Positions 7,246 to 35,426 of a stretch of DNA of 58,171 nt are shown one piece after another. The stretch comes from Streptomyces sp. NBC_00102. Its GTDB lineage: Bacteria > Actinomycetota > Actinomycetes > Streptomycetales > Streptomycetaceae. The translations under genes were made by a program, and so were the position numbers. The DNA lies in assembly GCF_026343115.1 (NCBI RefSeq), contig NZ_JAPEMC010000008.1, positions 1-58,171 on the forward strand, read 5' to 3'. Every line of letters starts with the position of its first letter. Position 1 is the first letter of the stretch. The notes beneath the pieces are model-generated. The model was not told where the DNA came from. It saw nothing but the letters and a program-made list of their open reading frames with translations, and did no database searches.

Positions 7246-7257
7246 GGAGCCTGGGGC

Positions 7258-7291
7258 GCCCGGCCGCGCTCCGGTTGTCCGGCGGCCGGGC
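7258..7291. terminator. Probable hairpin terminator between convergent genes
   Basis: GCCCGGCCG (7258-7266) pairs perfectly with CGGCCGGGC (7283-7291) over a 16-nt loop, just after the stop at 7245 and before the MarR stop at 7371. Confidence 0.5.
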
Positions 7292-7370
7292 CGCGCCTCG
7301 GGCCGATTCCGGCAGACCCCGAACACGCGCAGCCGACAAGGCCGTTCGGGGGCCCGGGCGACGAGGCCCG

Positions 7371-7892: not shown

Positions 7893-7934
7893 ACCGGCAT
7901 CGTACGCGAAAACAGTGCCTGGACGTAAGAGAGA

Positions 7935-7957
7935 CATGATGGAATGATTCCGTTGTG
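7935..7957. promoter_or_regulatory. Candidate MarR operator
   Basis: A perfect 5-bp-arm palindrome, GGAAT-G-ATTCC (7941-7951), with further partial dyad symmetry out to 7935 and 7957, sits between the divergent MarR and MFS genes in a locally AT-rich stretch. Position and symmetry fit a MarR dimer; binding is inferred. Confidence 0.5.
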
Positions 7958-8022
7958 AAATTAACTCGTCGCTCCCGCCCCGTTCCTCGTACGGCGGCGC
8001 CCTCACACCGGAGGACCGCTCG

Positions 8023-18146: not shown

Positions 18147-18149
18147 CCG

Positions 18150-19373: not shown

Positions 19374-22300
19374 CGGCGGCGGCCCTTCCGGGTGGTGCGG
19401 GTGTCCAGTTCTTCGAAGGCGGGGGCGTCCGCGCCGCGGACCCGTGCCCAGGCGGCTGCGAAGAGTTCGGGGACGGCGAGGTGGGGCAGGATCCTGGCGG
19501 GCCCGGTCACGGGGTACAGCGCTTCCTTCCAGGTCTCCAGCGGCAGCCCGGGGGCGCCGCGTTCCAGCCAGCCGCAGGGAAGGAAGAGGGTGCGGCCGGC
19601 CCGGGAGCGCTTCGCCTCCACGACGAGGTCGGTGGCGGCGAGTTCCGTGCGGGCCTTCTTGATCCGTGCGGGCTTCCACCCGGTCCAGCGGACGCAGTTG
19701 CGGTCCGTGGGGTCGGGCAGGGCGAGCAGCATCAGGTAGAGGGCGGCGGCGTCCGTGCTCAGGGCGAGGGCGTCGGCCGCCTCGGCCACCAGGTCCGGCA
19801 CCGCACGCGTCGGGTCCTGGGCCGGACGGTGCGCGGAGCCGTCGGGTGCCCCCGCCTCGGCCAGGCGGTCGCTCTCCTGGCTCAGCAGGGCGCGGAGGGC
19901 AAGGAGATCGCCGGTGCGCTGTCGGCCGACGATGCCCTCGACCAGGCCGAACGCCGGGTCGTCGGGTCCTTCGAGGCCTGCCGGGCGGATCAGCAGCCTC
20001 TCGCTGTCGCCGTAACCGGGGGCGAGGAGCAGTGCCGATCCGGCCCGGACCAGTCCGTCTGCCCCGGCGCCGCCGGACTCGGGGAGCCCGTGCGCGTGAC
20101 GGATCGCGGTGCCGAGGGAGAACCCCGACTCCGTCCAGTCCAGCCCCAGGTCCAGCACCAGGCCGGGGTCGGCGAGCCGGGTGCGCAGGGCAGCGAGCCC
20201 GACGGGCAGGTGCGCCCGCAGGGGGTGTCCGTACGGCAGCGTGTACGCGAGGGTGCGCAGGGCGGTCAGGGCGGTGTGGACGTCACCGCGCGCGTTCACC
20301 AGGTGCAGGGGCGGACGGGCGCTGCCGTCCGGCACGGGGGCGCCGTGGCCGAGCCAGCTCCGGGTGCCCGCGTTGAGGATCAGGTCGACGGAGGCGGTCA
20401 TGGCGCCGGTGAGGTCGAGGTCCAGTTCCTCGGGGACGCGGACGAGGGAGCCCAGGCGCTCGCGCCACACCTCGGCGGCGGCCGGGACGTCGGGGCCGGT
20501 GGACCACAGCTCGGCCGGGTCCTCGGGCAGGAGCGCCCTCAGCACGGCGCGCCGGTCGTCGCGGGGCAGGGCGTCCAGCTTCTCCTGGGCCGCCTCGAAG
20601 GCACGTGTCTTCGAGGCGAGCAGGGCCAACGCCTCGGCGCCGGGCTCCCTTACGGCTGCCGACACCAGCGCGGTGGCCTGGAGCAGGCCGATTCCGGTGG
20701 CCGAGTGGAACTCCTCGGCGGCCTCCGGTCGCCAGGGCGCAGCGCCCTTTTCCCGCACGAGGGCGGTGAGCCGCGTGAGCCGGTCCCGGGCGATGCCCTG
20801 CCGGTGGACGTGCTCACGGTCCAGTGTGAAGCCGGGGACGGGGCCGAAGGCTCCGGTCGGGTCGTGGTCCAGGGCGAGCCAGCGTGCCGCGTCGCCGCGG
20901 GAGTTGCGCCCGTGTTCGGCGAGGACCACGACGGTACGGTCGCCCTTGCGCAGCACCTGGCCGAGGCGGTGCACGGCCTCGGGGCGACCTGACCTCCCGA
21001 GTGTCGTCGTGTCGAGCGGTTCGATGAGTTCCACCTGCCGGACCGTGCCCGCCGGGTCGGCCAGCGGGCCTGCGGCGAGTGCTTCCAGGAGGACGAGGAG
21101 TGCGGTGCGGTGCTCGGGTGCGGTGGCCTCCGAGGCTGTCCGGTAGGCAAGTTCGGGCAGTTCGTCGAGGAGGGACGTCCAGGCGAGGGATTCGCCGGGC
21201 ACCGTGTACTCGTCGCGCCGCCAGCCGTCCACGGACGTGAAGGGGACCTTCGACGGCGTGGGCGGGCCGAACGCAGGCTCACCGCCGAGGACGTGGTTGA
21301 CGGCGAGGATCTGCCGGATGGCCGTCCACCGGGTTCCGGCTCCCCACCAGGTGCCGCGCATCCGCTCGGAGCCCCAGGCGGTGGCCGTCCGCAGGGTCGT
21401 GTCGTCGCCGTGCTCGGGCTCGTGGTCGAAGAACATGCCCTGGGTGCGCGCGGTGTTCCGGGGGGTGGCCGGCCGCTCGGGTGCGGGCGGTTCCAGGTAC
21501 CGGGCGACCGCGACGGCCCGGTCCACCGCGTTCCGCACGAGCGCGGTGACGCCCGCGAGGAGCCGTGGGTCGGACACCTCGGGCAGCACCCTGGCGACGG
21601 CCTCCTCGCTCATCTCCCGCGACGAGGGGCCGGTGTACTTCTCGGCCGCCCGGAATGCCTCCAGGTGCCGGGCGACGGCGGCGGCGACCTCGTCGAACAG
21701 CGTCTGGGTCCGGGAGTCCGTCAGGTTCCGCAGGGCGGCTGAGCCCCGCTCGTCCCTCGGGCGCAGGGCGTGCCAGTAGGCGACGGGGGGCACGTAGGGG
21801 GTGCCCGCCGCGTCGTTGCCGCCGGAGGAATCGGTACCGACGGACCACAGGCCGGCGGTGCCGTCGGTGTCCGCCGGGTGCGCTTCGACGGAGCGGTGGC
21901 GCAGGACCGCGACGGGCCGTGAACCGCCGGGCAGGGCGAGGGCGCCGAGCGGTACCACGGAGGCGCCGTCGGGCAGCGGATGCGGCAGGACGACCGTGTG
22001 GCCGTCGGGGGTACCGGCGGCGGTGCGGCCCCCGTCGGCCGGTTCGGCCGCGCCGGGCTCGGTGACGCTGCGGCGCACCCAGCGGCCGAGGACCACGCCG
22101 TCCGTGCCGAACGGGGTGGTCTCCAGGCCGGGCTGGAGGGGCAGCACCTGGCAGTGCTCGGCGATCAGCCGGGTTCCCTCCCGCGCGCCGGAGCGGAGGA
22201 AGGCGGGGAGGGACGCGCGGCCGTGTGTGCCGTCGGCCGGGTCGTACTCCAGCCACACCCGCTGGGTGCCCTGGTGGCCCTCCCGCCAGTGACCGGTGCC

Positions 22301-24574
22301 GTCGGAGAGGACGGCGCGCCGGGGCGGGAGGACGGTGTCGCCCGCGTGCAAGGCCTTGGCTCCGGTGGCACGGCCGCCGCCGGGCAGCGGCACGCAGACC
22401 ACGTCCGCGAGACCGGAGCCGCTCCAGCGGGGGACCTGTTCGCCGCCTACGGTGAACACTTCGGCGGGGCGGTGCGACCAGTAGCCGAGCTGCTTGCCGT
22501 CCTCCCACCAGATCACCAGCAACTCGCCGTCGACAAAACGGAAGGCAGCCGTCCGCCAGGGGTCGGTGGTGGTCGGCAGCCGCAGGGTGTGGCGCAGCAG
22601 AACACCATCCGGACCGACGACGACGGCCCGTTCGAGCGTGCTCAGGATCAGCGCGGGCCAGGCGCCGGTGACACTGACGTTCTGCGACCTGCCGTTCCGC
22701 CCCCGCGACGCGGTGGCGGCCTCGGCGGCCAGTTCGTCGTAGGTCTCGTCGAGTGCGGGCCAGCCGAGTTCGTCGAAGACCCCCGTACGCAGGGTGGAGA
22801 CGAGCAGCGGTACGACGTCGTGCCGCCCGAGCAGGCCGGCGGCCTCCGGGGCGACGTCCGCGACGACGGCGCGGAACGGCGAGAGCTTGTTGAGGGCCGT
22901 GCGCAGCCCGGGAAGTCCTCGCGCGGCGGTGTACTCCTCGGCACAACTGGTCAGCCACTCGCGCAGAAGGACCGAGAGCACCGGGTGCGAGGCCAGTCCT
23001 GCCAGGCCGGCGTCGCTCAGCCGCTGACCGTGCCCGTGACCGAGGCCGCCGACGTTCCGGCGCAGGAGGTCGCGGAAGCCCGGGTGTGCGGCGACGCCGG
23101 CGAGATCCCGCCGCCCGGGCGCGTCGTCGGCGAGCCACTGATCCAGCGAAAGGCAGTGCGACCGCTCGTCTCCGCGACCCGTTTCCTCGTCGTCCGGCTC
23201 GGCCACGGGGACCCCGGAGGCCAGGCAGAGGTCGAGGAGGTCCAGGTCGGCGGTGCGCCGCCAGCGGCCCTGGAACAGCTCGACGGGGCGATTGTCGGCG
23301 CGCAGCCGGTCCGCCATCCGCAGGACGAGGTCCAGGGTGCGCGTGCTGCGGCCCGACGTGGCCCGGTTGCGCCGTCGGTACACCTCCCAGCGTGCGAGCC
23401 AGTCCGCCGGGGAGACGGACGGGTCCAGTGGGGCGGCGGAGTCGGACGCGGTCCGGTCGGACGCGTCCGGGTGGGCGGTCAGCAGTTCCTCGGCGCCGGA
23501 CTCGGCCAGCAGCGCGAGCCAGCCGGACTCGCCGTCCGTGTCCCGGCCGCTCTCGTCGAAGGTCTCCGGGAAGAACCCGAGCAGCCGGACCCGCACGGAC
23601 ACGTCCGCCCGCGCGAGGGCGATGAGGGCGGAGCCGTAGGTGGCCCAGAACGAGGCGGGGGCCCGGACGACTCCGGGAGAGCCGATCAGGTCGGCCACCA
23701 GCTCGCGTTCGGCACTCTCGCGGTCCAGCCCGGCGGCTTTGACCAGGGTGCGTACGTCCTGCGGCAGCGCGGCGTACGGTGGCATGCCGGCCGCGCAGCG
23801 CTCGACCAGCAACCGGCGGAACTGCGCCCAGGCGTCCGCCGGTTCGAGCCGGGCCACCAGATCGCGCACGTACTGCCGCAGCGCCTTGACGGTCAGCGCG
23901 CCGGCGAGGGCGAACTCGAGGAAGACGGCCCGCTGCCGGTCCTCGTCCACGGTCAGGCCGTGGACCCGTTCGGCTTCGCGGGCCTTGCCGAAGAAGGAGG
24001 CTGCGTAGGTGGCGTTCTCGGCCTGGAGGAAGAGGCGTGCCACCTGCTCGCAGTAGGTGGGGAGGAAGTGCGGCACGGCGCGGCCGAGCCGGGCACCGAG
24101 CTCGTCGAAGCCCTCCTTGGCCGCGCCGGCGCGGGTCTTGGCCTGTCGGCCCAGCCGCTCGATGTCCTTGACCAGGGCGAGGGCGTGGTGCCCGTTGGCC
24201 GGGTCGTTGGCGAGGGCCCACGCCGGAAAGCCCAGCGTCTCGCGGCGGACCTGTCCCACGACGGGGGCCTCCGCGGTACGGGCCAGCCCCAGGAATTCCA
24301 GTGCCAGGTCCTCGGCCTCGCCCAGCGTGCCGGGCACGAGCCGGATCACCGGGCGGTCCTCGAGGGCGGTGTGCGTGTAGGTGCGGGCGGTCAGCGTGTC
24401 GGCGCCGTCCCGGTCGGTGCTGCCGGCCGGGAGGATCGCACCCGCGTCGAGCAGGGCCGCCGCGCGGCGTTCGGCGGCGGGGGCCGAGGCGCCGCCACCC
24501 CGGTTCTGGGCGGGAAGGGGCGGCGTGCCCGCTGCGGCCGTATGCGTTTCGGTGTTCGTCGTCGTGGTGCTCAT
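19370..24574 (-). CDS. Very large uncharacterised protein (1734 aa) of the MoxR-vWA operon, MolR/DUF4132-associated
   Basis: The ATG at 24574 overlaps the stop of the DUF4132-like gene, and its own stop overlaps the MoxR start. The protein is soluble, with no signal peptide or membrane helix. Residues about 120-330 are a helical region (AVPHFLPTYCEQVARLFLQAENATYAASFFGKAREAER reads like an HEAT/ARM-type scaffold); residues about 550-900 are beta-rich (QLGYWSHRPAEVFTVGG and similar), suggesting a propeller; the C-terminal 600 residues are helical and end in a basic RRTTRKGRR-like tail. Orthologues in Streptomyces are often labelled DNA-binding protein without evidence. Size and position parallel E. 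coli MolR/YehI, next to yehLMPQ. Role probably scaffold or substrate recognition; inference. Confidence 0.72.
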   Translation of the reverse strand: MSTTTTNTETHTAAAGTPPLPAQNRGGGASAPAAERRAAALLDAGAILPAGSTDRDGADTLTARTYTHTALEDRPVIRLVPGTLGEAEDLALEFLGLARTAEAPVVGQVRRETLGFPAWALANDPANGHHALALVKDIERLGRQAKTRAGAAKEGFDELGARLGRAVPHFLPTYCEQVARLFLQAENATYAASFFGKAREAERVHGLTVDEDRQRAVFLEFALAGALTVKALRQYVRDLVARLEPADAWAQFRRLLVERCAAGMPPYAALPQDVRTLVKAAGLDRESAERELVADLIGSPGVVRAPASFWATYGSALIALARADVSVRVRLLGFFPETFDESGRDTDGESGWLALLAESGAEELLTAHPDASDRTASDSAAPLDPSVSPADWLARWEVYRRRNRATSGRSTRTLDLVLRMADRLRADNRPVELFQGRWRRTADLDLLDLCLASGVPVAEPDDEETGRGDERSHCLSLDQWLADDAPGRRDLAGVAAHPGFRDLLRRNVGGLGHGHGQRLSDAGLAGLASHPVLSVLLREWLTSCAEEYTAARGLPGLRTALNKLSPFRAVVADVAPEAAGLLGRHDVVPLLVSTLRTGVFDELGWPALDETYDELAAEAATASRGRNGRSQNVSVTGAWPALILSTLERAVVVGPDGVLLRHTLRLPTTTDPWRTAAFRFVDGELLVIWWEDGKQLGYWSHRPAEVFTVGGEQVPRWSGSGLADVVCVPLPGGGRATGAKALHAGDTVLPPRRAVLSDGTGHWREGHQGTQRVWLEYDPADGTHGRASLPAFLRSGAREGTRLIAEHCQVLPLQPGLETTPFGTDGVVLGRWVRRSVTEPGAAEPADGGRTAAGTPDGHTVVLPHPLPDGASVVPLGALALPGGSRPVAVLRHRSVEAHPADTDGTAGLWSVGTDSSGGNDAAGTPYVPPVAYWHALRPRDERGSAALRNLTDSRTQTLFDEVAAAVARHLEAFRAAEKYTGPSSREMSEEAVARVLPEVSDPRLLAGVTALVRNAVDRAVAVARYLEPPAPERPATPRNTARTQGMFFDHEPEHGDDTTLRTATAWGSERMRGTWWGAGTRWTAIRQILAVNHVLGGEPAFGPPTPSKVPFTSVDGWRRDEYTVPGESLAWTSLLDELPELAYRTASEATAPEHRTALLVLLEALAAGPLADPAGTVRQVELIEPLDTTTLGRSGRPEAVHRLGQVLRKGDRTVVVLAEHGRNSRGDAARWLALDHDPTGAFGPVPGFTLDREHVHRQGIARDRLTRLTALVREKGAAPWRPEAAEEFHSATGIGLLQATALVSAAVREPGAEALALLASKTRAFEAAQEKLDALPRDDRRAVLRALLPEDPAELWSTGPDVPAAAEVWRERLGSLVRVPEELDLDLTGAMTASVDLILNAGTRSWLGHGAPVPDGSARPPLHLVNARGDVHTALTALRTLAYTLPYGHPLRAHLPVGLAALRTRLADPGLVLDLGLDWTESGFSLGTAIRHAHGLPESGGAGADGLVRAGSALLLAPGYGDSERLLIRPAGLEGPDDPAFGLVEGIVGRQRTGDLLALRALLSQESDRLAEAGAPDGSAHRPAQDPTRAVPDLVAEAADALALSTDAAALYLMLLALPDPTDRNCVRWTGWKPARIKKARTELAATDLVVEAKRSRAGRTLFLPCGWLERGAPGLPLETWKEALYPVTGPARILPHLAVPELFAAAWARVRGADAPAFEELDTRTTRKGRRR

Positions 24575-25431
24575 GCCGCCCGCTCCTCGTCCTGCACGTC
24601 GCGTCCGGCGTGGAGCGCCGCCGCCATGCGCATGCCTTCGGACCACGCCACGGCGCCGACCTCGGCCGCCGTCAGCGCGCGCCCCGAGGCATCGGTCCAG
24701 CCCAGCGGGCCCGTCTCGGTGTCGTGCGCGTCGTATCCGTCGTGCTCGCCGATCCAGATGCGCGCCTCGACACCGGCGCCGTCTTCGACGACCGGGCAGA
24801 CCGCGTACCCGCCGCGCGACCGGTACCCGAGCTGGGTGACGCGGCCGTGCAGGAAGCGCAGTTCCTTGAACACGCCGCCGGCGTAGGTGTCCACGGAGGT
24901 GGTGTCCGGGGCGAGGCCGGCCGGTCGGTGCCACACCTCGCGGAACAACTGCTCCACGTTCTGGCGCACTTCCAGCTCGACGGCGAACTCCCGCAGCTCG
25001 TCGAGGTCTTCCAGCAGGACGGGGTGGGGCACGCTGACGACGTCCGGGGTGATGCGGACCGTGTCGCCGTCCAGGTCGACGAGGCCGAGACCGCGCTCGG
25101 CGTCGACGTCGCGGAGGAACCCGGCGACCCCGCCGTCCGCGCCGGTGACCACCATGTCCCGCAGGGCCGCCTGCCACGCCGGGTCGGGCCAGACCCGGGC
25201 GAGCACAGCGGTGGGAACGGGCAACGAACGCACCATCCACTGCTCGACGTCGCTCAGGCACCGGCGCTCGTGCCGGTCCAGCCATTCGGTCAGCTGACGG
25301 AGACCGACGACCGCCGGGTCGTCCTTCAGCTTGGCCGGAACGGACTTCAGCCGCCGGCCCTTCTCATTGCGGCAGACCACCTTGCCCGCCTCCAGAGCGA
25401 CTTCGTAGTCGCCCGCCGAAACCCACCCCAT
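24571..25431 (-). CDS. DUF4132 domain protein, first gene of MoxR-vWA operon
   Basis: 286 residues. The ATG at 25431 is preceded by GGGGAGAA at 9 bases, and the stop overlaps the next gene (ATGA). It opens MGWVSAGDYEVALEAGKVVCRNEKGRRLKSVP and contains FAVELEVRQNVEQLFREVWHRP, the Q-x-x-x-Q-x-F-R-E core I associate with DUF4132 (the MolR/WGR-linked family), and a C-terminal YAVCPVVEDGAGVEARIWIGEH segment. E. coli MolR carries DUF4132 in one 1.2-kb-residue-scale chain; here a compact copy is a separate protein in front of the 1734-aa gene. A perfect 11-bp palindrome lies 23 bases upstream of the start codon. Catalytic function unknown. Confidence 0.75.
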   Translation of the reverse strand: MGWVSAGDYEVALEAGKVVCRNEKGRRLKSVPAKLKDDPAVVGLRQLTEWLDRHERRCLSDVEQWMVRSLPVPTAVLARVWPDPAWQAALRDMVVTGADGGVAGFLRDVDAERGLGLVDLDGDTVRITPDVVSVPHPVLLEDLDELREFAVELEVRQNVEQLFREVWHRPAGLAPDTTSVDTYAGGVFKELRFLHGRVTQLGYRSRGGYAVCPVVEDGAGVEARIWIGEHDGYDAHDTETGPLGWTDASGRALTAAEVGAVAWSEGMRMAAALHAGRDVQDEERAA

Positions 25432-25478: not shown

Positions 25479-25678
25479 TGAAGAATCCCGTCGACGGCGA
25501 CCCACCGTGACCAGTGGAGGAGACTCTAGGCGGCCCCTGTGACAACGCGTCCGGGCACCGCCCCCTTCGTCCTGCGGCCGCATGCACGAAAGGCCGTCCG
25601 CATGCCTCACCCACCGTCGCGCCGGGGCCCGCCGCAGGTGGTCGCCGTCCCGCGCTTCCGTCGCCGTGTGACGGCGGG

Positions 25679-26647
25679 TCATGCCCCCTTGCGGAGCGTA
25701 CGGGTGATCTCGCGGCCTTCGGCGGCGGTGAGCCGCTCCTCGCAGGGGATGCCCAGGGCCGTCGCCAGGTCCCGGCCGTGCAGGTCGACGGCCGCTTCGA
25801 CGAGCTCGGCGAATTCGTGCACCGCCAGCCGGGCCTGCCGCCAGGCCCCGGTCCAGGTGACGGCCACGATCAGTGCCGCGGGCCACCACCACAGGGCGGG
25901 CAGTACGTACAGCAGCCCCCAGGCGGCACGGCGCGCCGCGCCGGTGAGTGCGGTCCGGGCAGCCTTTATCTCGCCGTGTGCGGTGTCCGGGAGCAGGAGC
26001 CAGAGCCTGGGCCAGGCCGAGGTGAGGTCGATGGCGTAGGACCGGTGGATCCGGGCGTCCGCCGCCAGCAGCCGGTCGCCCATCCAGGTCGGGCGGGCCG
26101 GGCGGGCGAGGGCGATGAGATTGCGGGCCTCACCCAGTTCAGCGGTGGTCGGAGCGGTCGGACGGTCCGCCGGGTCGTCGAGGGTGGGCGGCCCGTCGGA
26201 CGCGTCCGGCGCGTGGGACGCGCGGGTGTCCGCGGAGACGCGCAGGGCCCTCGTGGTCAGTGCCTGCCGGTAGCGTGCGTCGGCGGCGCTCCACCTCCGT
26301 GTGCGACGCCGGGTCAGGGCGCGTGCGGCCGGGCGCAGCGGCCGTGGCCAGTCACCGAGCCACCCGCGCTCGACGCCGCCGCCGAGCGCGCCGGCCAGTC
26401 GGCCGACCCCGGCCGAGGCCGCGAGGATGAGCGCGGCAACCAGGGCCACCGTTCCCGGGGAGTGCGTGGCGGGGGTTTTGGCCATGGTGTCGATGCGCTC
26501 GATCAGCAGGCCGTGTTCGAAGGGGGTACGGTGCCCGAGGACCGAGCCTGCCGCGGACACGGCGAGGTAGAGGAGACCGGGCAGCACGAGCAGAGACAGC
26601 CAGGTGTCGGCGAGCTTGCCGCCGAGCGTGGCCAGGAACGCGGTCAT
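25679..26647 (-). CDS. Membrane protein of the CHAT-protease locus, 322 aa
   Basis: I recognise no named family. Three hydrophobic helices: residues about 18-40 (LSLLVLPGLLYLAVSAAGSVL), about 66-88 (GTVALVAALILAASAGVG) and about 255-285 (WGLLYVLPALWWWPAALIVAV), with a cytoplasmic-looking Arg-rich loop between the second and third that contains a disordered Asp/Pro/Thr segment. The ATG at 26647 follows 3 bases after the stop of the small-protein gene, so the two form an operon divergent from the TPR-CHAT gene. Small membrane proteins beside CHAT/caspase-TPR genes are known in conflict systems and are possible membrane effectors or anchors; that role is inference. Confidence 0.72.
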   Translation of the reverse strand: MTAFLATLGGKLADTWLSLLVLPGLLYLAVSAAGSVLGHRTPFEHGLLIERIDTMAKTPATHSPGTVALVAALILAASAGVGRLAGALGGGVERGWLGDWPRPLRPAARALTRRRTRRWSAADARYRQALTTRALRVSADTRASHAPDASDGPPTLDDPADRPTAPTTAELGEARNLIALARPARPTWMGDRLLAADARIHRSYAIDLTSAWPRLWLLLPDTAHGEIKAARTALTGAARRAAWGLLYVLPALWWWPAALIVAVTWTGAWRQARLAVHEFAELVEAAVDLHGRDLATALGIPCEERLTAAEGREITRTLRKGA

Positions 26648-26650
26648 CGC

Positions 26651-27010
26651 TCACCACCTCACCAGGCGCAGAGGAAGGGCGAACAGCTCGCACCTGCCCA
26701 TGCCGTCGAGCGCCACGCGGTCGCAGCGGTCCGCCGGGCACACGTGCGCCTCCTCCAGGGGATGCCCGGGGCCCAGGTAGGGGAGGCTCGCCCCTCCGGG
26801 GGCACGCAATTGACCGAGGCCGCGGGCGATACCGCACTGGCGGAGCAACTCGTCTACGTCTGCGACAAGTTGTGCCGCATCGCCACCTGCTCGGAATTCG
26901 GTCAGGATCGTCTCCAGCGCGGGCAGCCGACCGCGACGGGCCACGACATCCCGTATGCCCGTGAACTGGCCGCACAATTTTGTGAGTTGGGATGATTCCT
27001 GACCCGTCAC
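26651..27010 (-). CDS. Small Cys-containing protein, probable CATRA-associated small protein
   Basis: 119 residues, GTG start at 27010 with GGGAGGGGAAACAG upstream. N-terminal half is helical (LETILTEFRAGGDAAQLVADVDELLRQCGIARGLG). The C-terminal half holds HVCPADRCDRVALDGMGRCELF, a CxxxxC...C cluster that may bind zinc, ending in a basic LPLRLVRW. I associate this layout with the small proteins encoded beside CHAT/caspase-TPR genes in actinomycetes (CATRA-associated small protein), from memory only. It starts 16 bases from the divergent TPR-CHAT gene and is followed by the membrane protein gene, so the three are likely co-regulated. Confidence 0.65.
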   Translation of the reverse strand: MTGQESSQLTKLCGQFTGIRDVVARRGRLPALETILTEFRAGGDAAQLVADVDELLRQCGIARGLGQLRAPGGASLPYLGPGHPLEEAHVCPADRCDRVALDGMGRCELFALPLRLVRW

Positions 27011-27026
27011 CCTGTTTCCCCTCCCG

Positions 27027-29888
27027 ATGTCCGCGTCGCCTCGTACGGTAACTCCTGTGACCGGCGCGGGGCGTGACGATCTGGTGCGGGCCCTTGGCGC
27101 CCGGGTGCTGCTGTACCGGTCCAGTCTGGATCAGGACGCGATACTCTCGCCTCAGGCATTGGCCGAGGTGCGGATGTTGATGCGTCTCGTGGCCGATCCC
27201 TCGACCGATCCGGAGGCGGTTCGGGCCATAGCGGACCTGCATCTGTGCCGGAGCCTGGTGCTGGGCGCGGAACGCGGCCGTGATGACGCGGTCGTCGCCG
27301 CCGCCCTCGCGCGCTACCTCGGCCCCGGGGGGCCACCGGAGACCGAGGCCGAAACGACGGACCGGCGAATCGCCCTCCTTCATGAGCAGGCCGGCGACCA
27401 AGTCGCGGTAGCCGAACGCCACCGGGATCCCGCGCTGCTGGAGCGGGCCCTCCACGCGGCAAGGGCCGCGGTCGACAGCACCCCCGTGCGGGCGGGTCCG
27501 ATCCGGGCCTCCGCCCTGGCCCTGTGGGGACTGGCCTTGCGGCTCCGGTACGAGCGCGAGGGCGATCCGCGCGACCTCGACGCCGCCATCGGCGCCCTGC
27601 GCGAGGCCGGGACCGCAGCGGGCAGCCGGCACCCCGGCAGGGCAGGCATCCTCAGCGCGCTCGCGGCCTCGCTGCGAGAACGCCACGAGCGTGCGGGAGG
27701 CCTTGAGGACCTCCTGGAAGGGGTACGGACGGCCCGCGCGGCAGTCGAAGCGGGTGGCCCGGACGACCGAGGGGGCAGGCTGCACAATCTCGGCCTCGCC
27801 CTGCGGCTGCGCCACGAACGGACCGGGGACCAGAGGGACCTGGAGGAGGCCATCGCCGTACACCGCGAGGCCGTGGCTCTCACACCTCCAGGTCACCGCG
27901 ACCATTCCCTGCTCCAGCAGGGCCTGGCCAACGCGCTGGACGTCCGATTCGAACTGGCCTCCGCCGCGGAGGACCTCCGGGCGCGCATGGACGCTCTGGA
28001 GGCAGCGGTCGACACGACCGCCGGGGCGGCACTCCGGCCCGGGGGTGAGCTCGCCCCTGACGCCGGCAGCAGGGGCACTGCCGCCGCCGTCACGCGGGCC
28101 GGCGCCCTGGTCAACCTCGCCTCCGCGCTCGCCCGACGGTACGAACTGACCGCGGACGGCGGTGACGCGGACCGCGCCGAGGTCCTGCTCCGGAGGGCGG
28201 TGGCCATCCTCCCGGACCAGCACGCGGCGCACGCCGTGATCCAGTACCAACTCGGGCTGGTGCTGGCGGCCCGTGACCGCCCGGAAGCGACCGCCTGCCT
28301 GCGGGCCGCCGCCCTCCACCCCGCGGCCGCACCCCGGCTACGGCTCCGGGCAGCCCGTGGGTGGGGGCACGCCGCGATGACGGCCGGCCGGCCGGAGGAA
28401 GCGGTCACCGCCTACAGCAGTGCGATAGGCCAACTGCCCGCTCTTGTCCCTCTCCACCTGCACCCCGCCGACGCCGAACAGGCGCTCGCCGAGACCGGGC
28501 TGCTGGCCGGCGACTCGGCGGCCTGCGCGCTGTCCGCCGGCGACCCGGCCCTCGCGCTCGGCCTGCTGGAACTCGGCCGCGGTGTCCTGCTCGGACAGGG
28601 CATGAAGAACGGCGACGAGCTGACGGAGCTACGGGGCCACGCACCGCGGACGGCCGATCGGCTCGCGTGGCTGCGTACGCGGCTCGACGCCGCGGACGAG
28701 GAGACGACATCCGACGAACGCCACGAGCTGGCGGCCGAATGGGACCGGCTCCTCGTCGAGGTCCGGTCCCGGCAGGGCTTCGAGGACTTCATGAGCCCTC
28801 CGCACCCCGACCGGCTGCTGTCCCAGGGCATGGAGGGCCCGGTCGTCGTCGTCAACGTCAGCCGCTACCGCTGCGATGCGATCGCCGTCACCGCCGAGGG
28901 GCTGCGCGTCGTCCCGCTTCCCCGTCTCGCGCTGCCCGAGCTCGTCCACCGGGCGGCGGACCTGCTCACCGTTCTCGACGGACTCCAGGATCCCGCCGCA
29001 GCCGATCCGGAGGCCCAGGCGTCGGCCGAGGACGAGGTCGACGGTCATCTCCGGTGGCTGTGGGACACGGTGACCGGTCCCGTGCTCGAAGGCCTCGGCA
29101 TCACCGGGCCGTCCACGACCCCGCCGCCCCGCGTGTGGTGGATACCCACCGGACCACTTGCCTTCCTCCCCCTGCACGCCGCCGGACACCACCACGAGGG
29201 GACGGGCCGAACGGTGCTCGACCGCACGGTGTCCTCCTACACGCCCTCCCTGCGGGTCCTCGCACGGAGCCGTCGCCGCCCCGACGTCCGCGCGGCCTCC
29301 TTCCTGGTGGTCGCCGTGCCCGAGGCGCCCGCGGCACCACCCCTGCCCGGAGCCGCCGAGGAGGCGGCCGTACTCACCGGGCTGCTGCCCGGGGCCCGGC
29401 TGCTCACCGGCGACGGCGCCACCCGCGACGCCGTCGTCGCCGCTCTGCGTGACCACACCTGGCTGCACTTCTGCGGACACGCCACTGCCGAACCGGGCGC
29501 GGGCTCGGGAAGCCGGCTGCTCGTCCACGACCACCTCGACCACCCGCTCACCGTCGCCGGGATCTCCCGCCTCGACCTGTCCGGCGCCGAACTGGCGTAC
29601 CTGTCCGCGTGCCACACGGCCCGGACGGGGTTCACCGCGGTCGACGAGGCGCTCCACCTCGCGGGTGGGCTCCAGATCGCCGGGTTCCGCCATGTGGTCG
29701 GGACGCTGTGGAGCATCGACGACACGGTGTCCACGCGGATCGCCGAGCGGGTGTACGCGGGCCTGGGCGCGCCGCGACCGGTGGCCGCTCGTGCCTCCCA
29801 CGCCGTCCGCGAGGCGGTACGGGACATGCGCGACCTGTATCCGGTGACACCCTCGCTCTGGGCGGCCCACATTCACGCAGGACCATGA
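27027..29888 (+). CDS. TPR repeat protein with C-terminal CHAT (caspase-like) protease domain
   Basis: 953 residues; ATG at 27027 without an obvious RBS, only 16 bases from the divergent gene's start, so transcription may be leaderless; a GTG at 27057 is an alternative. Residues about 140-560 are TPR-like helices repeated about every 45-50 residues (RALHAARAAVDSTP, RRAVAILPDQHAAHAVIQYQLGLVL and others). Residues about 650-953 form the CHAT domain: WWIPTGPLAFLPLHAAGHH, catalytic His818 in LHFCGHA and Cys862 in AYLSACHTA, then GGLQIAGFRHVVGTLWSIDD. The dyad is intact, so it should be an active cysteine protease. CHAT proteases act as activated effectors or processors in bacterial immunity; the target is unknown. 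Confidence 0.92.
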   Translation: MSASPRTVTPVTGAGRDDLVRALGARVLLYRSSLDQDAILSPQALAEVRMLMRLVADPSTDPEAVRAIADLHLCRSLVLGAERGRDDAVVAAALARYLGPGGPPETEAETTDRRIALLHEQAGDQVAVAERHRDPALLERALHAARAAVDSTPVRAGPIRASALALWGLALRLRYEREGDPRDLDAAIGALREAGTAAGSRHPGRAGILSALAASLRERHERAGGLEDLLEGVRTARAAVEAGGPDDRGGRLHNLGLALRLRHERTGDQRDLEEAIAVHREAVALTPPGHRDHSLLQQGLANALDVRFELASAAEDLRARMDALEAAVDTTAGAALRPGGELAPDAGSRGTAAAVTRAGALVNLASALARRYELTADGGDADRAEVLLRRAVAILPDQHAAHAVIQYQLGLVLAARDRPEATACLRAAALHPAAAPRLRLRAARGWGHAAMTAGRPEEAVTAYSSAIGQLPALVPLHLHPADAEQALAETGLLAGDSAACALSAGDPALALGLLELGRGVLLGQGMKNGDELTELRGHAPRTADRLAWLRTRLDAADEETTSDERHELAAEWDRLLVEVRSRQGFEDFMSPPHPDRLLSQGMEGPVVVVNVSRYRCDAIAVTAEGLRVVPLPRLALPELVHRAADLLTVLDGLQDPAAADPEAQASAEDEVDGHLRWLWDTVTGPVLEGLGITGPSTTPPPRVWWIPTGPLAFLPLHAAGHHHEGTGRTVLDRTVSSYTPSLRVLARSRRRPDVRAASFLVVAVPEAPAAPPLPGAAEEAAVLTGLLPGARLLTGDGATRDAVVAALRDHTWLHFCGHATAEPGAGSGSRLLVHDHLDHPLTVAGISRLDLSGAELAYLSACHTARTGFTAVDEALHLAGGLQIAGFRHVVGTLWSIDDTVSTRIAERVYAGLGAPRPVAARASHAVREAVRDMRDLYPVTPSLWAAHIHAGP

Positions 29889-29972
29889 ACCTTGGTTCCC
29901 CGTAAGGTAGTTGACCCTGGATCGCCCGGTCCGGGGAGGCATCTGACGGCACACCGACGCAGGGGGAGCGAC

Positions 29973-31406
29973 ATGGGCGCGTGGTGGAGGAGACCGGGCA
30001 AGGGCGGCAACGCCAGGGGGCAGAGCTCGCGGGGCGTCCCGGGTCCGAACCGGGACGACCTGATCAAGGCTGCCTACCGGCACGGCACTCCGGTGCCGGA
30101 GGACCTCGCCCGGGAGGCCGCGGAGGCGGGCGGAGTCGAGGCGATGACCGTCCACGGCATCGGCCTCGGCAACCGGGGGCTCCTCGACGAGGCCGAAGTC
30201 TGGCTCCAGCGGGCGCGGGCCGCCGGTGACCCCATGGCATCCATGGCACTGGGCACGATCCGGATGGACCGTGGTGAATTCGACGAGGCGGAGCGGTACT
30301 TCCGGCCGGTCGCCGACACCGGGAACCCCATGGCCCGTCGGGCGTTGGAGGAAGTGAGGGCCCTGCGCACCGCCGAGGCACGCGGAGTTCCGCGTCAGTC
30401 CGCGCCGACGCCCGCTTCCGCACCTCCTCCCCCAAGCGTTCCGGTGACATCGGCGCCTTCGGACACCTCGGGTACTGCCGTCGCCCCGGGAACGTCGGCC
30501 GCCGCGGGGGCTTCGGCGTCCGAACCGCGGTCCGCCGTGGAATGGGCCGGCCAGCTGCTGCTCCGCAACCTGGACGACGACCATCCCCATGTGTACCTGG
30601 CCATGGCCGTTCTTCAGGCCGACGCGGGGCACTGGGACAAGGCGCGGGCCTGCTTCGCGGCCGCTCTGGGTTCCGGCGACCCCGACGTACTCTTCTGGAT
30701 CTCCCAGATGCACATCGCCGAGGACGGGCTCCACGCGGCGGTACCGCACGTCCGGCGGGCGGCCGACGCGGGGCACCCGCTGGCCCAGCACACCATGGGA
30801 GCGCTCCTGGCCGAGGCAGGCGACACGGCGCGGGCGGAGCACTACTACCGGCTCGCCGTCGCCGCCGGACACACCGGTTCGCACGTCAACCTCGGCGTCC
30901 TGCTGCGGCAGCGCGGCGACCTCGCCGGAGCGGAGACCCACTACCGCAAGGCGATCGAAGCGGGAGACGTCGACGGCATGAACAACCTCGGCAACCTGCT
31001 GCGCCGGCGAGGCGACCTGGCCGGGGCGGAGCGATGGTGGCGCCGGGCGGCCGACGGCGGCAACACCGACGGGCTCGTCAGCTACGGCGCCGTCCACGCG
31101 GAGCGGGGCGAGTGGGACCGTGCTGAGGAACTGTGGCGGCAAGCGGCCGAGAAGGGCCACCCGGCGGCCAAGCTCAACCTCGCCTCGGCCCTGCTGCGCA
31201 AGGGGCATGCGGAGGAGGCGGAGCGCTGGGTGCGTTCCGCCGGCATCCCCGCCGTACCACCCTCACCGGCCTCACCGCCGGCGGCGGACGCCCCGGCCGG
31301 TCCCGACCTCGTGGCGGTGGCGAGCTGGCTCAGCGGCGCCGCCGGAGCGGGCGACGCCGACGCCCGGGCGGCCCTGGACCTCATCGGTCACCCCGACGGA
31401 AAGTGA
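29973..31406 (+). CDS. Sel1/TPR-repeat protein
   Basis: 477 residues from the ATG at 29973 (GGGGGAG 8 bases upstream). Two blocks of Sel1-like repeats flank a disordered Ala/Pro/Ser/Thr linker (about 130-185): the first is GNRGLLDEAEVWLQRARAAGD then RGEFDEAERYFRPVADTG; the second block (about 195-440) has repeats such as AGDTARAEHYYRLAVAAGH, RGDLAGAETHYRKAIEAGD, RGDLAGAERWWRRAADGGN and RGEWDRAEELWRQAAEKGH, period about 36. No catalytic domain, signal peptide or membrane helix. It follows the TPR-CHAT gene by 84 bases on the same strand and may act as its adaptor or sensor. The N-terminus (GAWWRRPGKGGNARGQ) is basic. Confidence 0.88.
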   Translation: MGAWWRRPGKGGNARGQSSRGVPGPNRDDLIKAAYRHGTPVPEDLAREAAEAGGVEAMTVHGIGLGNRGLLDEAEVWLQRARAAGDPMASMALGTIRMDRGEFDEAERYFRPVADTGNPMARRALEEVRALRTAEARGVPRQSAPTPASAPPPPSVPVTSAPSDTSGTAVAPGTSAAAGASASEPRSAVEWAGQLLLRNLDDDHPHVYLAMAVLQADAGHWDKARACFAAALGSGDPDVLFWISQMHIAEDGLHAAVPHVRRAADAGHPLAQHTMGALLAEAGDTARAEHYYRLAVAAGHTGSHVNLGVLLRQRGDLAGAETHYRKAIEAGDVDGMNNLGNLLRRRGDLAGAERWWRRAADGGNTDGLVSYGAVHAERGEWDRAEELWRQAAEKGHPAAKLNLASALLRKGHAEEAERWVRSAGIPAVPPSPASPPAADAPAGPDLVAVASWLSGAAGAGDADARAALDLIGHPDGK

Positions 31407-31444: not shown

Positions 31445-31639
31445 TCCGTTCGGGTTCGAAGCAGCGGTCCGTAGCCGCCACGGCGACGACGGCGGCGCTA
31501 CCCGCGAAACGTCTCCAGCAGCCGCCGTAAAAGCCAGACATGACGAGGGCGGTCGCGCCGGATCAGCCGAATCGGTCCTCAAGATTCCGAGGTGTACGCG
31601 CGGTCCAGGGAGTGCAGCGTGGCCTCCACCATGATGCAG

Positions 31640-31925
31640 CCGGCGAACAGCAGTTTCATCTGCTCGAAGAGCTCCTTCTCGACGCCCAGGTGGAGCCAGA
31701 GCTGGTCCATGAACGGCATGGTCTTCCCTGCCCGTTGGTGCTCCGCTATCGCAGCGAGCGCGGGTTTGACGTCGAAGTGGTCGTTCGGGATGGCCGGCAA
31801 GATCGCCCCGGCGCGGTTGTAGGCATTTTGCCCCGCTGCTGATCCGAGGAAGTCCGCGAATGCCGGCGCGGCCTTCATGCGCTTGCCTTTCGCATTCAGG
31901 CCGTAGGCCGCGGAGATGGCGGCCG
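31640..31925 (-). pseudogene. C-terminal remnant of a sugar ABC solute-binding protein
   Basis: The minus strand encodes FADFLGSAAGQNAYNRAG, AILPAIPNDHFDVKPALAAI and TMPFMDQLWLHLGVEKELFEQMKLLFAG, the recognisable C-terminal part of family-1 extracellular sugar-binding proteins (loss of ADFL-S---Q--Y---G-ILPA-order is minimal). The N-terminal two thirds, the signal peptide and any start are missing; upstream the frame runs into a GH3 fragment. Confidence 0.62.
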
Positions 31926-32014
31926 GTATGCGGGTGCGTGCAGGCATCTTCGCCCTGCTGGCAGGGCGAAGATGCCCAGCTCGGGTCCAGGAGAGGCCGC
32001 TTGGAATCTCGGTC

Positions 32015-32200
32015 AGGCAGGTTCCGGGATCGACGTAGCTGGATCCGCCGACTCCGGTCAGGGGGTCGGTGTCGGCGGGGCCGATGACGGCCAGCGACCT
32101 CACCGAGGCGGTCGGCGGAAGGGCAGAGGAACAGTTGGCGAGCAGGACCGTGGAGGAGATCACCGCCTCGTGGACAAGGTCCCGGCGGGCCTGGGCTTGG
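32015..32200 (-). pseudogene. Glycoside hydrolase family 3 fragment
   Basis: Minus-strand translation gives ARRDLVHEAVISSTVLLAN then LPPTASVRSLAVIGPADTD and GVGGSSYVDPG, matching the segment of GH3 beta-glucosidases where the second domain begins (A-x-E-x-x-VLLKN, LPL, S-x-AVIGP-x-A, GGGSS-x-V-x-P). Only about 60 residues remain, fused in frame to the solute-binding remnant; neither catalytic Asp nor acid/base is present. Confidence 0.6.
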
Positions 32201-32203
32201 CTC

Positions 32204-32237
32204 GGCTGGGCTGGGCTGGGCTGGGCTGGGCTGGGCT
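32204..32237. repeat. Pentanucleotide tandem repeat (GGCTG)6
   Basis: Six perfect GGCTG units (32204-32233) followed by GGCT (32234-32237), lying between the GH3 remnant and the 3' end of the ricin-lectin gene, whose stop codon it touches. Likely slippage-prone; it marks the junction between decayed and intact sequence. Confidence 0.9.
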
Positions 32238-34477
32238 CAGCCGACCGTCCACCGCTGGAGGGCGGAACCGGTGTCGGTCTGCTGGGTGAGCAGGGCGCCC
32301 TGGCTCGTGGACGCCGAGGTCAGGACCAGATTGCTCTTGACGGAGGTGACGCTGTAGGTGCCGTCGGAAAGGCGGGTGAACGTCCAGTGCTGGTTGGCAC
32401 CGCTGGTGCAGGTCCACTGGATGATCTTGGCGCCGGCGGCGGTGGAACCGTCGGAGACGTCGGCGCACAGTCCGGATTCGGCGTTGCGCAGTTCGTAGGA
32501 TCCGTCGTTCTGCCGGCTGAGGGTCCAGGTCTGGTTGGCGCCGCCGTTGGCGGTGTAGGTGATGAGCTGGGTGCCGGCGGTGGTGCTGTGGCCGGGGTTG
32601 TCCAGTGCCTGTCCGCCGGTGGTGAGGGTGTGGTCGCCGTTCAGCCCGACGGCGGAGGTGCCGACCGCCGTGACGGTCAGCGTCTGCTCCGCGGCGCCGC
32701 GTCCGCCGCCGACCGTGCTGCCGGCGGTGTCGGTCCAGGCGCGCACGGGGGTGGTCTCGGCGAGCCTGCCGTTGACGCCGGAGAGGCCGACGACCAGGCC
32801 GCTGTAGCGGTTCACCAGTCGGTACGTGCCCGTGGCGGCGCCGTTGACCGAGGAGGTGTTCGGCACGACGAACCACTGCTGGCCGACGGTGGGACCGCCG
32901 CTGCCGGGCGGGGTGACGGTGGGTGCGCTGTCCCAGGCGCGGCCCGTCGCGGCGGTGGTGGGTACGCCGAGGAGCTGTCCGGTGGCGGCGTTGGCGATGC
33001 GGTAGGAACCGTCGCCGGTGCCGGTGAAGGTCCAGGCGTCCAGTCCTGTCCCGGTGGAGGTGGCCGTCGAGGTGGTGGCGGAGGAACTGGAGGAGACCTG
33101 TGCCAGGATTCGGCCTCCGCCGCCCGCGATGCGATAGGTCCTGGCCGGATCGAAGGTCGCGGGGGCCGGGGCGGAAGAGTTGACCGTCAGGTTGACGTAC
33201 TCGCCGGAGGCGCCGCCCGAGCAGCCGAAGGAGCAGTAGGACCGGAAGTCCTTGCCGACTATCGCCGAACCCGTCTTGCTGATGCCGTCGAGGAACCACC
33301 GGTACCAGGAGGCGGTGTGATACCCACCGGTGTCGCCGATCAGGCGCCACTTCTGGGTGGCCAGGTTGTCGGTGGCGTACAGCTGTTGCGGCGCGTTGCC
33401 GGACTGGTCGGCCGCCTGGGGTTCGCCGATGTAGAGACCCAGGTAGGCGTTGTAGGTGATGTCCATGACGAACAGGGGCGAGGTGGGCGGGGTCTTGCCT
33501 GCGGCGACCTGCTGGTCCACGCTGCCGGTGTTGGCCGGGTCGTACTCCTTGGCGGTGGGTGTGTAACCGGTGGTGTCTGTGGCGGTCACCGGGACCGTGT
33601 TGCTCTCCCGGCCGCCGACGCCCGGCTGGGACCAGGAGCCGCCGTACCACTTCTGCCAGGTGCCGGAGGCCATTTTGCCGGACAGCGGGGCGCGGGCCAC
33701 GTGGGAGTAGAACGCCTTCCAACCGCCGTTCTTGTCGATGAGGCGGGAGCCGCAGAAGACGTAGAAGTAGCCCGAGGCGGCGTCTACGTAGAGGCGCTGG
33801 TCACCGTCGCCGTAGGAGTACGTCTGCTGCGGGAAGGCAGTGGCGTCGCCGCGCGCGGTGCTGTACGGGGACGTGAGGGCATGGCCCTTGATGGTCCAGT
33901 GCCGACCCTGGTCGGTGGAGACGGCGTAGTCGATGGCGTCGAAGTGGCTGCTGTCGCCGAAGGGTTGCGGGGTGAATTCGTTGTGCACCAGGCCGTACCA
34001 GTCCCCGCTGTCGGGGTCGACCCATACCCCGGCCAGATCGCAGAAATTGCGCTGCGAGTAGCCGGAGCCGCTGGGCGGGAAGGTAGCCGCGGTACCGGTG
34101 GGGCTGTTGTTGCACAGTGTGGTGGTGTCCGCATTGGTCCCGGAGTCGCTGATCGCGGCGGAGCGGGTGGCGGTGTCGAGGTCTGCGCCGGTGTAGAAGG
34201 TCCACGTCCGGCTGTCGCTCGGACCGTACAGCGAGTGGGCCTGCTGGTAGTAGAACGTCCCGTCCTTGTCGATGTACGGGTAAGCGGGGGTGTCGTCCGG
34301 GTGGGTCCAGCCGCCCTTGGCGCCGACCGTCACCGTGTAGGTGGGGTCGGCGGCGGAGGCGGCCGGGACGTTCACGTTCAGCACGGTGCCGACCACGGCG
34401 AGCGCCGCCGCGGCGAGTGCTCCGACGGCCCTGGTGCGACGTGCGGTATGTCCGGGACTCCTGCGAGGGGTCGCCAC
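32237..34477 (-). CDS. Secreted ricin-type beta-trefoil lectin protein with unassigned N-terminal domain
   Basis: 746 residues; GTG start at 34477 with AAGGAG 7 bases upstream. Signal peptide: basic start (ATPRRSPGHTARRTR), hydrophobic core GALAAAALAVVGTVLNVNV, cleavage near ASA-AD (about residue 42). Residues about 45-440 are beta-rich with DxDxx-type and aromatic repeats (GTFYYQQAHSLYGPSDSRTW, WVDPDSGDWYGLVHNEF, GYFYVFCGSRLIDKNGG), suggesting a beta-propeller glycosidase-like fold; I cannot name a GH family or catalytic pair. Two beta-trefoil lectin units follow (about 445-600 and 605-746) with repeated Q-x-W elements (NQTWTL, NQHWTF, LQRWTV). It lies inside a locus of decayed sugar-use genes and may be under the adjacent LacI regulator. 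Confidence 0.85.
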   Translation of the reverse strand: MATPRRSPGHTARRTRAVGALAAAALAVVGTVLNVNVPAASAADPTYTVTVGAKGGWTHPDDTPAYPYIDKDGTFYYQQAHSLYGPSDSRTWTFYTGADLDTATRSAAISDSGTNADTTTLCNNSPTGTAATFPPSGSGYSQRNFCDLAGVWVDPDSGDWYGLVHNEFTPQPFGDSSHFDAIDYAVSTDQGRHWTIKGHALTSPYSTARGDATAFPQQTYSYGDGDQRLYVDAASGYFYVFCGSRLIDKNGGWKAFYSHVARAPLSGKMASGTWQKWYGGSWSQPGVGGRESNTVPVTATDTTGYTPTAKEYDPANTGSVDQQVAAGKTPPTSPLFVMDITYNAYLGLYIGEPQAADQSGNAPQQLYATDNLATQKWRLIGDTGGYHTASWYRWFLDGISKTGSAIVGKDFRSYCSFGCSGGASGEYVNLTVNSSAPAPATFDPARTYRIAGGGGRILAQVSSSSSATTSTATSTGTGLDAWTFTGTGDGSYRIANAATGQLLGVPTTAATGRAWDSAPTVTPPGSGGPTVGQQWFVVPNTSSVNGAATGTYRLVNRYSGLVVGLSGVNGRLAETTPVRAWTDTAGSTVGGGRGAAEQTLTVTAVGTSAVGLNGDHTLTTGGQALDNPGHSTTAGTQLITYTANGGANQTWTLSRQNDGSYELRNAESGLCADVSDGSTAAGAKIIQWTCTSGANQHWTFTRLSDGTYSVTSVKSNLVLTSASTSQGALLTQQTDTGSALQRWTVG

Positions 34478-34497
34478 GGTGTGCTCCTTCGGTGTCG

Positions 34498-34548
34498 GGG
34501 TGTGACGGTGTGCGGGAAATTGGGAGGTCGTCCGGGTGTGACGGTGTG
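34498..34548. repeat. Direct repeat in the leader of the lectin gene
   Basis: GGGTGTGACGGTGTG occurs at 34498-34512 and 34534-34548, same orientation, spacing 36 bases, just upstream of the minus-strand lectin start. It could be a repeated activator/repressor site or a duplication scar. Confidence 0.55.
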
Positions 34549-34631
34549 TGGGGATTCGGAGGTTGTCGGGTTCTGCGGGCCTGTCGAAGGTCTCGATGCA
34601 GACCTGCGGTTCACCAGGGTCCGGCCGGTCG

Positions 34632-35050
34632 CACAGAGCGAGCTGCTCTGAGAACTTGTCGGTGAGGGCTCCGCGTTCGGCGATGGGAGCGTCGGAGTCG
34701 TAGCTGGTGACGGCGGGCTGGAGCCGGTTGCCGTCATGGTTCGCCCCCGCCCGCAGGCCGACGTTGGTGCCGCCGTGGGCCATGCAGAAGCTCACCGGGC
34801 CGTGCGCCTCCGGAATGCGGCCCACGTCGTCGGCGGCGCAGGCGGCCGGGCGCACGTGGTGCGGCTCACCCCAGTGGTCGAACCAGGCGATCCGGAACTC
34901 CGCGCAGAAGAAGGGCTCTTCGGGCCGGCGGGAGCGCAGGAGCAGAGCAGCGGCCCACTGTTCGGGGCGGACACGGAAGTAGCAGGGCGAGCCGGAGAGC
35001 ATGCGGTGCGGGCGGCCGGCGCGCAGCAGCATGCCCCCGGTGTGGGTGAT
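34632..35050 (-). pseudogene. GH35 beta-galactosidase remnant with internal deletion
   Basis: The minus strand keeps the family N-terminus (LLRAGRPHRMLSGS then YFRVRPEQWA) joined abruptly to the later block FFCAEFRIAWFDHWGEPHHV, SFCMAHGGTNVGLRAGANHD and LQPAVTSYDSDAPIAERGAL. In GH35 enzymes these are separated by roughly 200 residues including the acid/base motif, which is missing. The nucleophile region E-F-x-x-W-F-D-H-W survives but the enzyme is clearly dead: no start context, truncated C-terminus. Confidence 0.78.
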
Positions 35051-35311
35051 CGTGGCCGCGGGGCGCTGGGCGCGGGCGATGCCGGGGACTGTCCGCCCGG
35101 TCACGTGACGGCTCCGGCAGTCATACCCGCACGGCCGGAGACGCTGGAGGACGAAGAAGGCGCTCGGCAGAGGTACGTCGGAACTCCTCAGGGCTCCTCC
35201 AAAGTGCTGCGGCGGACCCGGAGTACGACGCTCCGGCGGGACCGCGCGAGGTGAGACGCCCTGGTCCGCTGGGAGCCGGTGCGTCTCGATGGCCGGAACT
35301 ATGGCAGAGAA

Positions 35312-35325
35312 TGTTAACGATGCCA
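35312..35325. promoter_or_regulatory. LacI/CebR-type operator
   Basis: TGTTAACGATGCCA fits the actinomycete LacI-family operator pattern TGnnAnCGnTnnCA exactly, with the central CG. It lies about 100 bases upstream of the LacI gene start, implying autoregulation and probably once control of the divergent GH35 gene. Confidence 0.6.
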
Positions 35326-35426
35326 ACAGGCCATCACCCGCTTTACACAAGGGACTTCGTGTTTTGCGGTGCAGACATTCTGGGATCGATATCATTGCTT
35401 CGCCGGTCGGCGAGGGAAGGAAATCC

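Follow-up and report, generated by a model that had tools for sequence, protein, structure and literature searches.

We analysed a stretch of 58,171 bases from Streptomyces sp. NBC_00102 (the window), which is one entire contig of an 8.6 Mb genome with its closest named protein hits in Streptomyces, and found in it a gene for a TPR-CHAT protein next to genes for a small cysteine-containing protein (SMALL) and a membrane protein (MEM). The link between these three genes is conserved across many actinobacteria, and MEM and CHAT co-diverge, even between copies in one genome. An earlier note on this DNA had described the locus as CATRA-like, with a downstream Sel1 repeat protein as a fourth member; CATRA has been named as a caspase-dependent ternary conflict system (PMC8195603). 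In the databases searched the three-gene unit is without a name, and no description of it was recognised in the literature searched, the main CATRA paper being outside that comparison. The reading which we tentatively favour, and which we regard as quite possible if short of probable, is that of a CHAT-centred three-gene system parallel to CATRA, with a membrane effector which, we infer, would be gated by the protease.

Linkage of SMALL, MEM and CHAT

Loci were gathered by similarity to MEM alone, with CHAT disregarded. A MEM match was found in 32 of 150 relatives (the window's own genome counted), with up to five matches per genome. Together, 40 stretches fetched from the relatives, 38 loci from a scan of named genomes and the window made up 79 loci, labelled here with L numbers. 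The named-genome loci came from Streptomyces, Nocardia, Actinomadura, Nonomuraea, Kribbella, Sphaerisporangium, Micromonospora, Dactylosporangium, Catenulispora, Actinocrispum and a Streptosporangiaceae metagenome-assembled genome. Among the 79 loci SMALL was found in 60, a CHAT gene at ≤ 7 kb in 62 and both in 51. After dereplication to 70 loci (MEM match > 150 aa, identity < 95%), SMALL stood beside MEM in 57, CHAT was found at ≤ 7 kb in 56 and both in 48; for the named subset of 34 dereplicated loci these numbers were 33, 29 and 29. The co-occurrence in other genomes on which the earlier note had staked its case is thus present for SMALL, MEM and CHAT, and for the downstream repeat gene it is confined to the window's clade, one weak and short match aside.

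Where CHAT and MEM are on opposite strands, CHAT was located upstream of MEM in 39 of the 70 loci and downstream in 2; where they share a strand, it was upstream in 9 and downstream in 6. With four arrangements, retained synteny alone is an unlikely explanation of the link. CHAT genes are also scarce in the genus (79 matches over 37 genomes, G000 to G036, summed from a table), so that by our estimate far fewer than 1% of random sites would lie ≤ 7 kb from one. The window's own genome contains exactly two MEM and two CHAT genes, each CHAT beside a MEM; the second SMALL-MEM-CHAT module (L039, G000:C1:5768274-5773658) has 44% identity to the window's MEM and 50% to its CHAT domain.

The identities of MEM and CHAT were correlated (r = 0.86, n = 43, these being the loci with a CHAT match > 220 aa out of the 48 with all three genes), and 0 of 1000 permutations reached this value. 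Genome relatedness could by itself explain such a correlation. When CHAT swaps were restricted to copies within one genome (n = 52 loci, five genomes with two or three copies), the true pairing ranked first of 288 with 0.8755, the next pairing reaching 0.8745 and the median being 0.69.

Two further kinds of locus were observed. Three Actinomadura loci (L099, L107 and L116, at about 6705-8960 on the reverse strand) have a reading of 614-749 aa between SMALL-MEM and CHAT. In L104 (6276-9197, reverse strand) and L121 (6510-7193, reverse strand) the readings at the CHAT position have no CHAT domain; they are TPR-like by eye and do not match the TPR part of the window's protein.

The module and its proteins

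All four genes claimed for the locus exist as open reading frames, with two of the starts moved (Table 1). As open reading frames, the TPR-CHAT protein spans 27027-29888(+) and the repeat protein 29892-31406(+); a purpose-written codon-usage gene finder, applied to the window, shifted the first start to a GTG at 27057 (as in P0001) and the second to an ATG at 29973. Three bases separate the SMALL stop from the MEM start, and the GTG starts of SMALL and CHAT are 46 bases apart. Across 29 loci the spacing of SMALL and MEM ranged from an overlap of 54 bases to a gap of 11 bases.

Table 1 Positions of the module's genes and of features within them, as numbered in the window
Feature	Positions	Strand	Remarks
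MEM	25679-26647	-	Open reading frame, 322 aa; membrane protein; three hydrophobic segments, middle region basic
SMALL	26651-27010	-	Open reading frame, 119 aa; GTG start; directly upstream of MEM
Cys knuckle of SMALL (C91, C96, C107)	26690-26740	-	Possible metal site, perhaps with C13, judged from conservation
Low-confidence linker of SMALL, residues 69-84	26759-26806	-	From the model; begins at near-invariant R69
TPR-CHAT gene	27057-29888	+	943 aa; GTG start; divergent from SMALL-MEM
CHAT domain of TPR-CHAT protein	29049-29882	+	PF12770
His codon of the dyad	29478-29480	+	H818 from the 27027 start, H808 from 27057
Cys codon of the dyad	29610-29612	+	C862 from the 27027 start, C852 from 27057
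TPR (Sel1-like) protein	29973-31406	+	Accessory, after the TPR-CHAT gene; in the window's clade of modules

The CHAT domain of the window's protein matched PF12770 with E = 6.6e-49 (167 bits, cut-off 24). Its His/Cys dyad, noted before as H818 and C862, is indeed intact and is conserved in relatives: in 30 neighbourhood CHAT proteins the Cys was invariant and the His nearly so, and both were invariant in an alignment (A7) of 27 CHAT domains, comprising the window and 26 of the 29 called CHAT genes of named loci. The CHAT domain was found in 30/30 neighbourhood proteins and TPR families in part of these, TPR_10 being present in 9. In the window's own protein the TPR part scores under the Pfam cut-offs, and by profile it matches solved TPR structures. 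Uncut called CHAT genes encode proteins of 824-1787 aa.

MEM was expected to have three membrane segments, and we found hydrophobic segments at residues 19-37, 67-85 and 245-263, with three such segments in 29 family members and two in 5 (n = 34; alignment A6, the window and 33 of the 35 named MEM genes, without L096 and L102). A second alignment, A2, held 35 of 36 MEM genes, without L074. The middle region is basic (22 K+R vs 15 D+E over 134 residues) and conserved residues include W212, P213, W254, W255 and P256. The predicted structure is all-helical, with a predicted local distance difference test score (pLDDT) of 92.4 and a least confident internal stretch at 151-160 (mean 69). No Pfam match was obtained for any of 35 MEM family sequences. 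The database name which recurs for relatives of MEM, 'Vegetative cell wall protein gp1', has the look of a label assigned automatically.

SMALL likewise matched no Pfam family in a scan of 31 sequences, and both families are conserved. In a set of 31 SMALL sequences C91, P92, C96 and C107 did not vary and C13 hardly varied; a second set, of 34 sequences, had R69, C91 and P92 invariant and C13, C96 and C107 present at ≥ 90%; and in a wider set of 60 (< 90% identity) C107 was found in 60, C96 in 58, C91 in 57, C13 in 52 and R69 in 58. The C-terminal cysteines form a knuckle with the pattern CPx3C-x10-C and, judging from their conservation, may be a putative metal site, perhaps together with C13. 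The predicted structure (pLDDT 76) has three N-terminal helices and short strands around the Cys region, and residues 69-84, which start with R69, are under pLDDT 50. This linker is a candidate cleavage segment. The residue after R69 was G, S, T or A in 52/58 sequences (baseline for Arg in the N-terminal part, 117/336), and the motif G[LVI]x(1-8)R[GSTA] was found in 42/60 linkers against a maximum of 25 in 2000 shuffles, and under stricter dereplication in 30/45 (shuffle maximum 19) and 20/31 (shuffle maximum 14). Such a motif would suit a processing site.

A SMALL match was missing in 13 of the 70 loci. In the seven loci of a divergent MEM branch its place is taken by a small protein with a complete or partial Cys knuckle, and the omission of these seven genes (of 29, so that 22 were used) from alignment A1 and from the SMALL survey profile lowers the SMALL count. 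The small proteins which precede MEM in this branch (L069, L071-L075 and L078) differ from SMALL in their N-terminal half and resemble it at the end that contains the Cys residues, which looks as though the N-terminal domain of the small partner could be exchanged.

The downstream gene is present as claimed, and its family call is changed: the protein scores above the cut-off as TPR_2 (77.2 bits vs 27) and below it on the Sel1 model (19.4 vs 30.7). The gene is adjacent to the module in the window and in L040, L087, L089, L090 and L091, whose CHATs form one starred tree group (Shimodaira-Hasegawa-like approximate likelihood ratio test 99); in L088 it lies in a merged reading, and the sole match outside the window's clade, in L093, is weak and short. 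The TPR/Sel1 gene is an accessory of the window's small clade, as judged from these matches.

Surroundings of the module

To the left of MEM, at 12379-25431 (reverse strand), the window contains a separate cluster of genes encoding MoxR (407 aa), DUF5682 with vWA-CoxE (1314 aa), a 608-aa and a 1734-aa protein and DUF4132, which we take to resemble the E. coli yeh genes. The DUF4132 end of this cluster has close copies in several relatives. In all nine relatives from which such a copy was fetched, similarity to the window stops at 25556-25629, before MEM, and no match to MEM, SMALL or CHAT was found in these nine stretches; the module therefore sits at a variable junction.

The genes that surround the module are metabolic and of varied kinds. 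MEM was matched in part (37-54% of the query) by 11 records of large plasmids from Streptomyces and Embleya, and no MEM match was found among 50,697 phage records. To the right of the module, at 31579-35554 (reverse strand), there is a 194-aa reading which by eye resembles the C-terminal piece of a sugar-binding protein (no Pfam match), followed up in the same region by part of a GH35 domain that reads in frame with a ricin-type lectin protein; these readings are possibly decayed genes. An ISL3-family transposase is located near the contig end (55906-57516, reverse strand).

Possible function and comparison with known systems

The CHAT substrates known so far are often encoded close to the protease (PMC9729208), Csx30 being an example (PMC10028731). 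In the protease-gated reading, SMALL and MEM would form a resting complex at the inner membrane face until the TPR array sensed a signal and activated the CHAT dyad. CHAT might then cut the partner encoded beside it, either in the SMALL linker 69-84 or in the lower-confidence MEM loop around 151-160, and the cut would free or rearrange MEM, so that the membrane would be disturbed and the cell stopped or killed. The TPR/Sel1 protein of the window's clade may serve as an extra docking or sensing subunit. A bolder version, which we consider doubtful, would make the module a ternary system in its own right, for suicide or defence, which uses the TPR-CHAT family of CATRA with the whole adaptor-effector pair swapped, SMALL being cut at the conserved R-[GSTA] of its linker, its helical domain released from the Cys knuckle and MEM opened or unleashed. 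If true, the CHAT proteases of actinobacteria would be general executioner modules with exchangeable cassettes.

It should be noted that a number of findings weigh against such a protease-gated effector. CHAT was absent from 14 of the 70 dereplicated loci: in five of these (L115, L049, L058, L052 and L061) a contig end lies < 2.4 kb from MEM, for L115 on the less usual side for CHAT, in L096 MEM is only a fragment and in L042 transposase-like genes (by eye) adjoin MEM, and seven are left without explanation (L057, L068, L072, L077, L104, L109 and L121). CHAT is also a wider family, and among the matches listed at least 10 of the 79 CHATs of the genus adjoin a MEM and most stand without one. 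No recognised pore fold and no standout structural match were found for the MEM model. Defence families identified with PADLOC numbered 39 among 110 neighbours (set A9, 110 of 111 selected, one L121 reading omitted) and 34 among 91 controls (set A10, 91 of 93, two DUF4132 genes omitted), which is no clear excess. The bare R[GSTA] pair in SMALL was found in 55/60 linkers against a shuffle mean of 43 and maximum of 53, only a modest excess, and it equalled the shuffle maximum at 60% dereplication (41/45) and fell under it at 45% (27/31, maximum 30). Finally, the separase-type S1 position (eight residues after the conserved Trp) was V in 13 of 27 CHATs, L in 4, A in 3, T in 2, I in 2, G in 2 and C in 1, with the register taken from separase and Csx29 alignments and from the K670/D2151 statement in PMC9729208. 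An acidic residue at this position of the separase P1-Arg pocket was found in 0/27, and this speaks against a cut after R69 made with such a pocket.

The roles could also be reversed, MEM and SMALL being the sensor and CHAT the output: MEM would detect envelope or membrane-potential stress, SMALL would transmit it and CHAT would cleave targets elsewhere. The strong length variation of CHAT proteins would suit variable targets, and the large basic region of MEM, with conserved residues between the second and third hydrophobic segments, is consistent with sensing; however, the characterised CHAT protease Csx29 cleaves a locally encoded partner (PMC10028731, PMC9729208) and the non-protease partner in CATRA can bear an effector domain, and we think this arrangement rather unlikely. 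Unlikely too, and a little harder to credit, is that sporulating actinobacteria use the module to regulate development or the homeostasis of the cell envelope, and not in conflict. The PADLOC counts, the varied metabolic neighbours and the lack of a match among the phage records would all fit such a regulator, but the patchy spread of MEM, with up to five matches in one genome, is unlike that of a core developmental gene, and the partial matches on large plasmids and the loci without CHAT or with a broken MEM also speak against it.

It is very improbable that the module is a true CATRA system whose CATRA protein has diverged past recognition. Its layout is alike and its CHATs are interleaved with those of CATRA loci, but with matches allowed up to E = 1 neither CATRA-N nor CATRA-C (PF20269/PF20270) was found in 35 MEM sequences, nor CATASP (PF20271) in 31 sequences of SMALL, and profile-profile comparison gave probabilities of 0.1% for MEM vs CATRA and 0.3% for SMALL vs CATASP-type proteins. 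That the genes are chance neighbours, or part of the MoxR-vWA-DUF4132 cluster which the module abuts in the window, is next to inconceivable, and for SMALL-MEM-CHAT it is refuted by the pairing conserved in dozens of loci and by the nine DUF4132 relatives in which similarity ends before MEM.

Among known systems, the Csx29 protein of the type III-E CRISPR Craspase is likewise a TPR-CHAT protein with a His/Cys dyad and neighbouring partner genes, but the module's CHAT scores 30.2 bits on the NCBIfam Csx29 model, against a cut-off of 300, and we know of no CRISPR counterpart for SMALL or MEM. Gasdermins have a pore fold of mixed alpha/beta type. Bacterial gasdermin loci with CHAT or caspase-like proteases (PMC9729208) place, as the module does, the protease beside a putative membrane-acting protein; the MEM model, all-helical with membrane segments, speaks against a gasdermin fold, though no direct fold comparison was made. 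The EACC1/EACC2 and MoxR-vWA ternary systems (PMC7159879, PMC8195603) occur, like the module, in multicellular bacteria and include a caspase-type peptidase and a membrane-linked component, but no Pfam match to their components was found in MEM, SMALL or the CHAT protein. MoxR and vWA genes are not constant partners of the module: in 9/9 fetched relatives the flank that the MoxR-vWA cluster has in the window is present and the module is missing.

The closest comparison is with CATRA itself. CATRA-C (PF20270) had no match in the window's own genome and, as a positive control, matched in 8/150 relatives. Six CATRA stretches were fetched (L146-L151), and in four (L146, L147, L149 and L150) the genes for a CATRA protein, a small protein and a CHAT adjoin one another, which is the layout of the module. 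The contig end truncates CHAT in L148, where no small gene was called either, and no CATRA gene was called by the gene finder in L151. The six stretches contain no match to MEM or SMALL. Both of the CATRA-locus small proteins scanned match CATASP, and the small proteins of these loci have no Cys knuckle, in contrast to SMALL. Among five CATRA proteins scanned with Pfam, one has a CAP12-type TIR end, one a GT4-conflict end and three no further domain; those without an annotated end domain have, by eye, hydrophobic C-terminal segments. Of the effector types of CATRA partners (TIR, GT4, membrane), the MEM family shows membrane segments only. CATRA and CATASP are unrelated in sequence to MEM and SMALL.

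A quick maximum-likelihood tree was made of 57 CHATs of the module and 7 from CATRA stretches; in it the latter seven fail to form a group and interleave with those of the module. A single clade for them was rejected (approximately unbiased test, p = 0.006), with 7 label changes of which at least 3 are forced by starred branches. Three rows were flagged as long, two of them CATRA, with one branch of 8.1, and the CATRA label means that a CHAT lies in a CATRA stretch and nothing more, so that the number of cassette exchanges is unsure. The description of the locus as CATRA-like therefore holds as an analogy of layout and a common CHAT protease family, and fails as membership. We have defined a three-gene unit with two protein families that have no Pfam match, in which Cys852 of the protease and R69 and C91/C96/C107 of SMALL are handles on the role which has been predicted for the TPR-CHAT proteases of multicellular bacteria. 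The simplest reading of the sequence comparisons is that one TPR-CHAT protease family would serve at least two unrelated partner cassettes, with CATRA among them.

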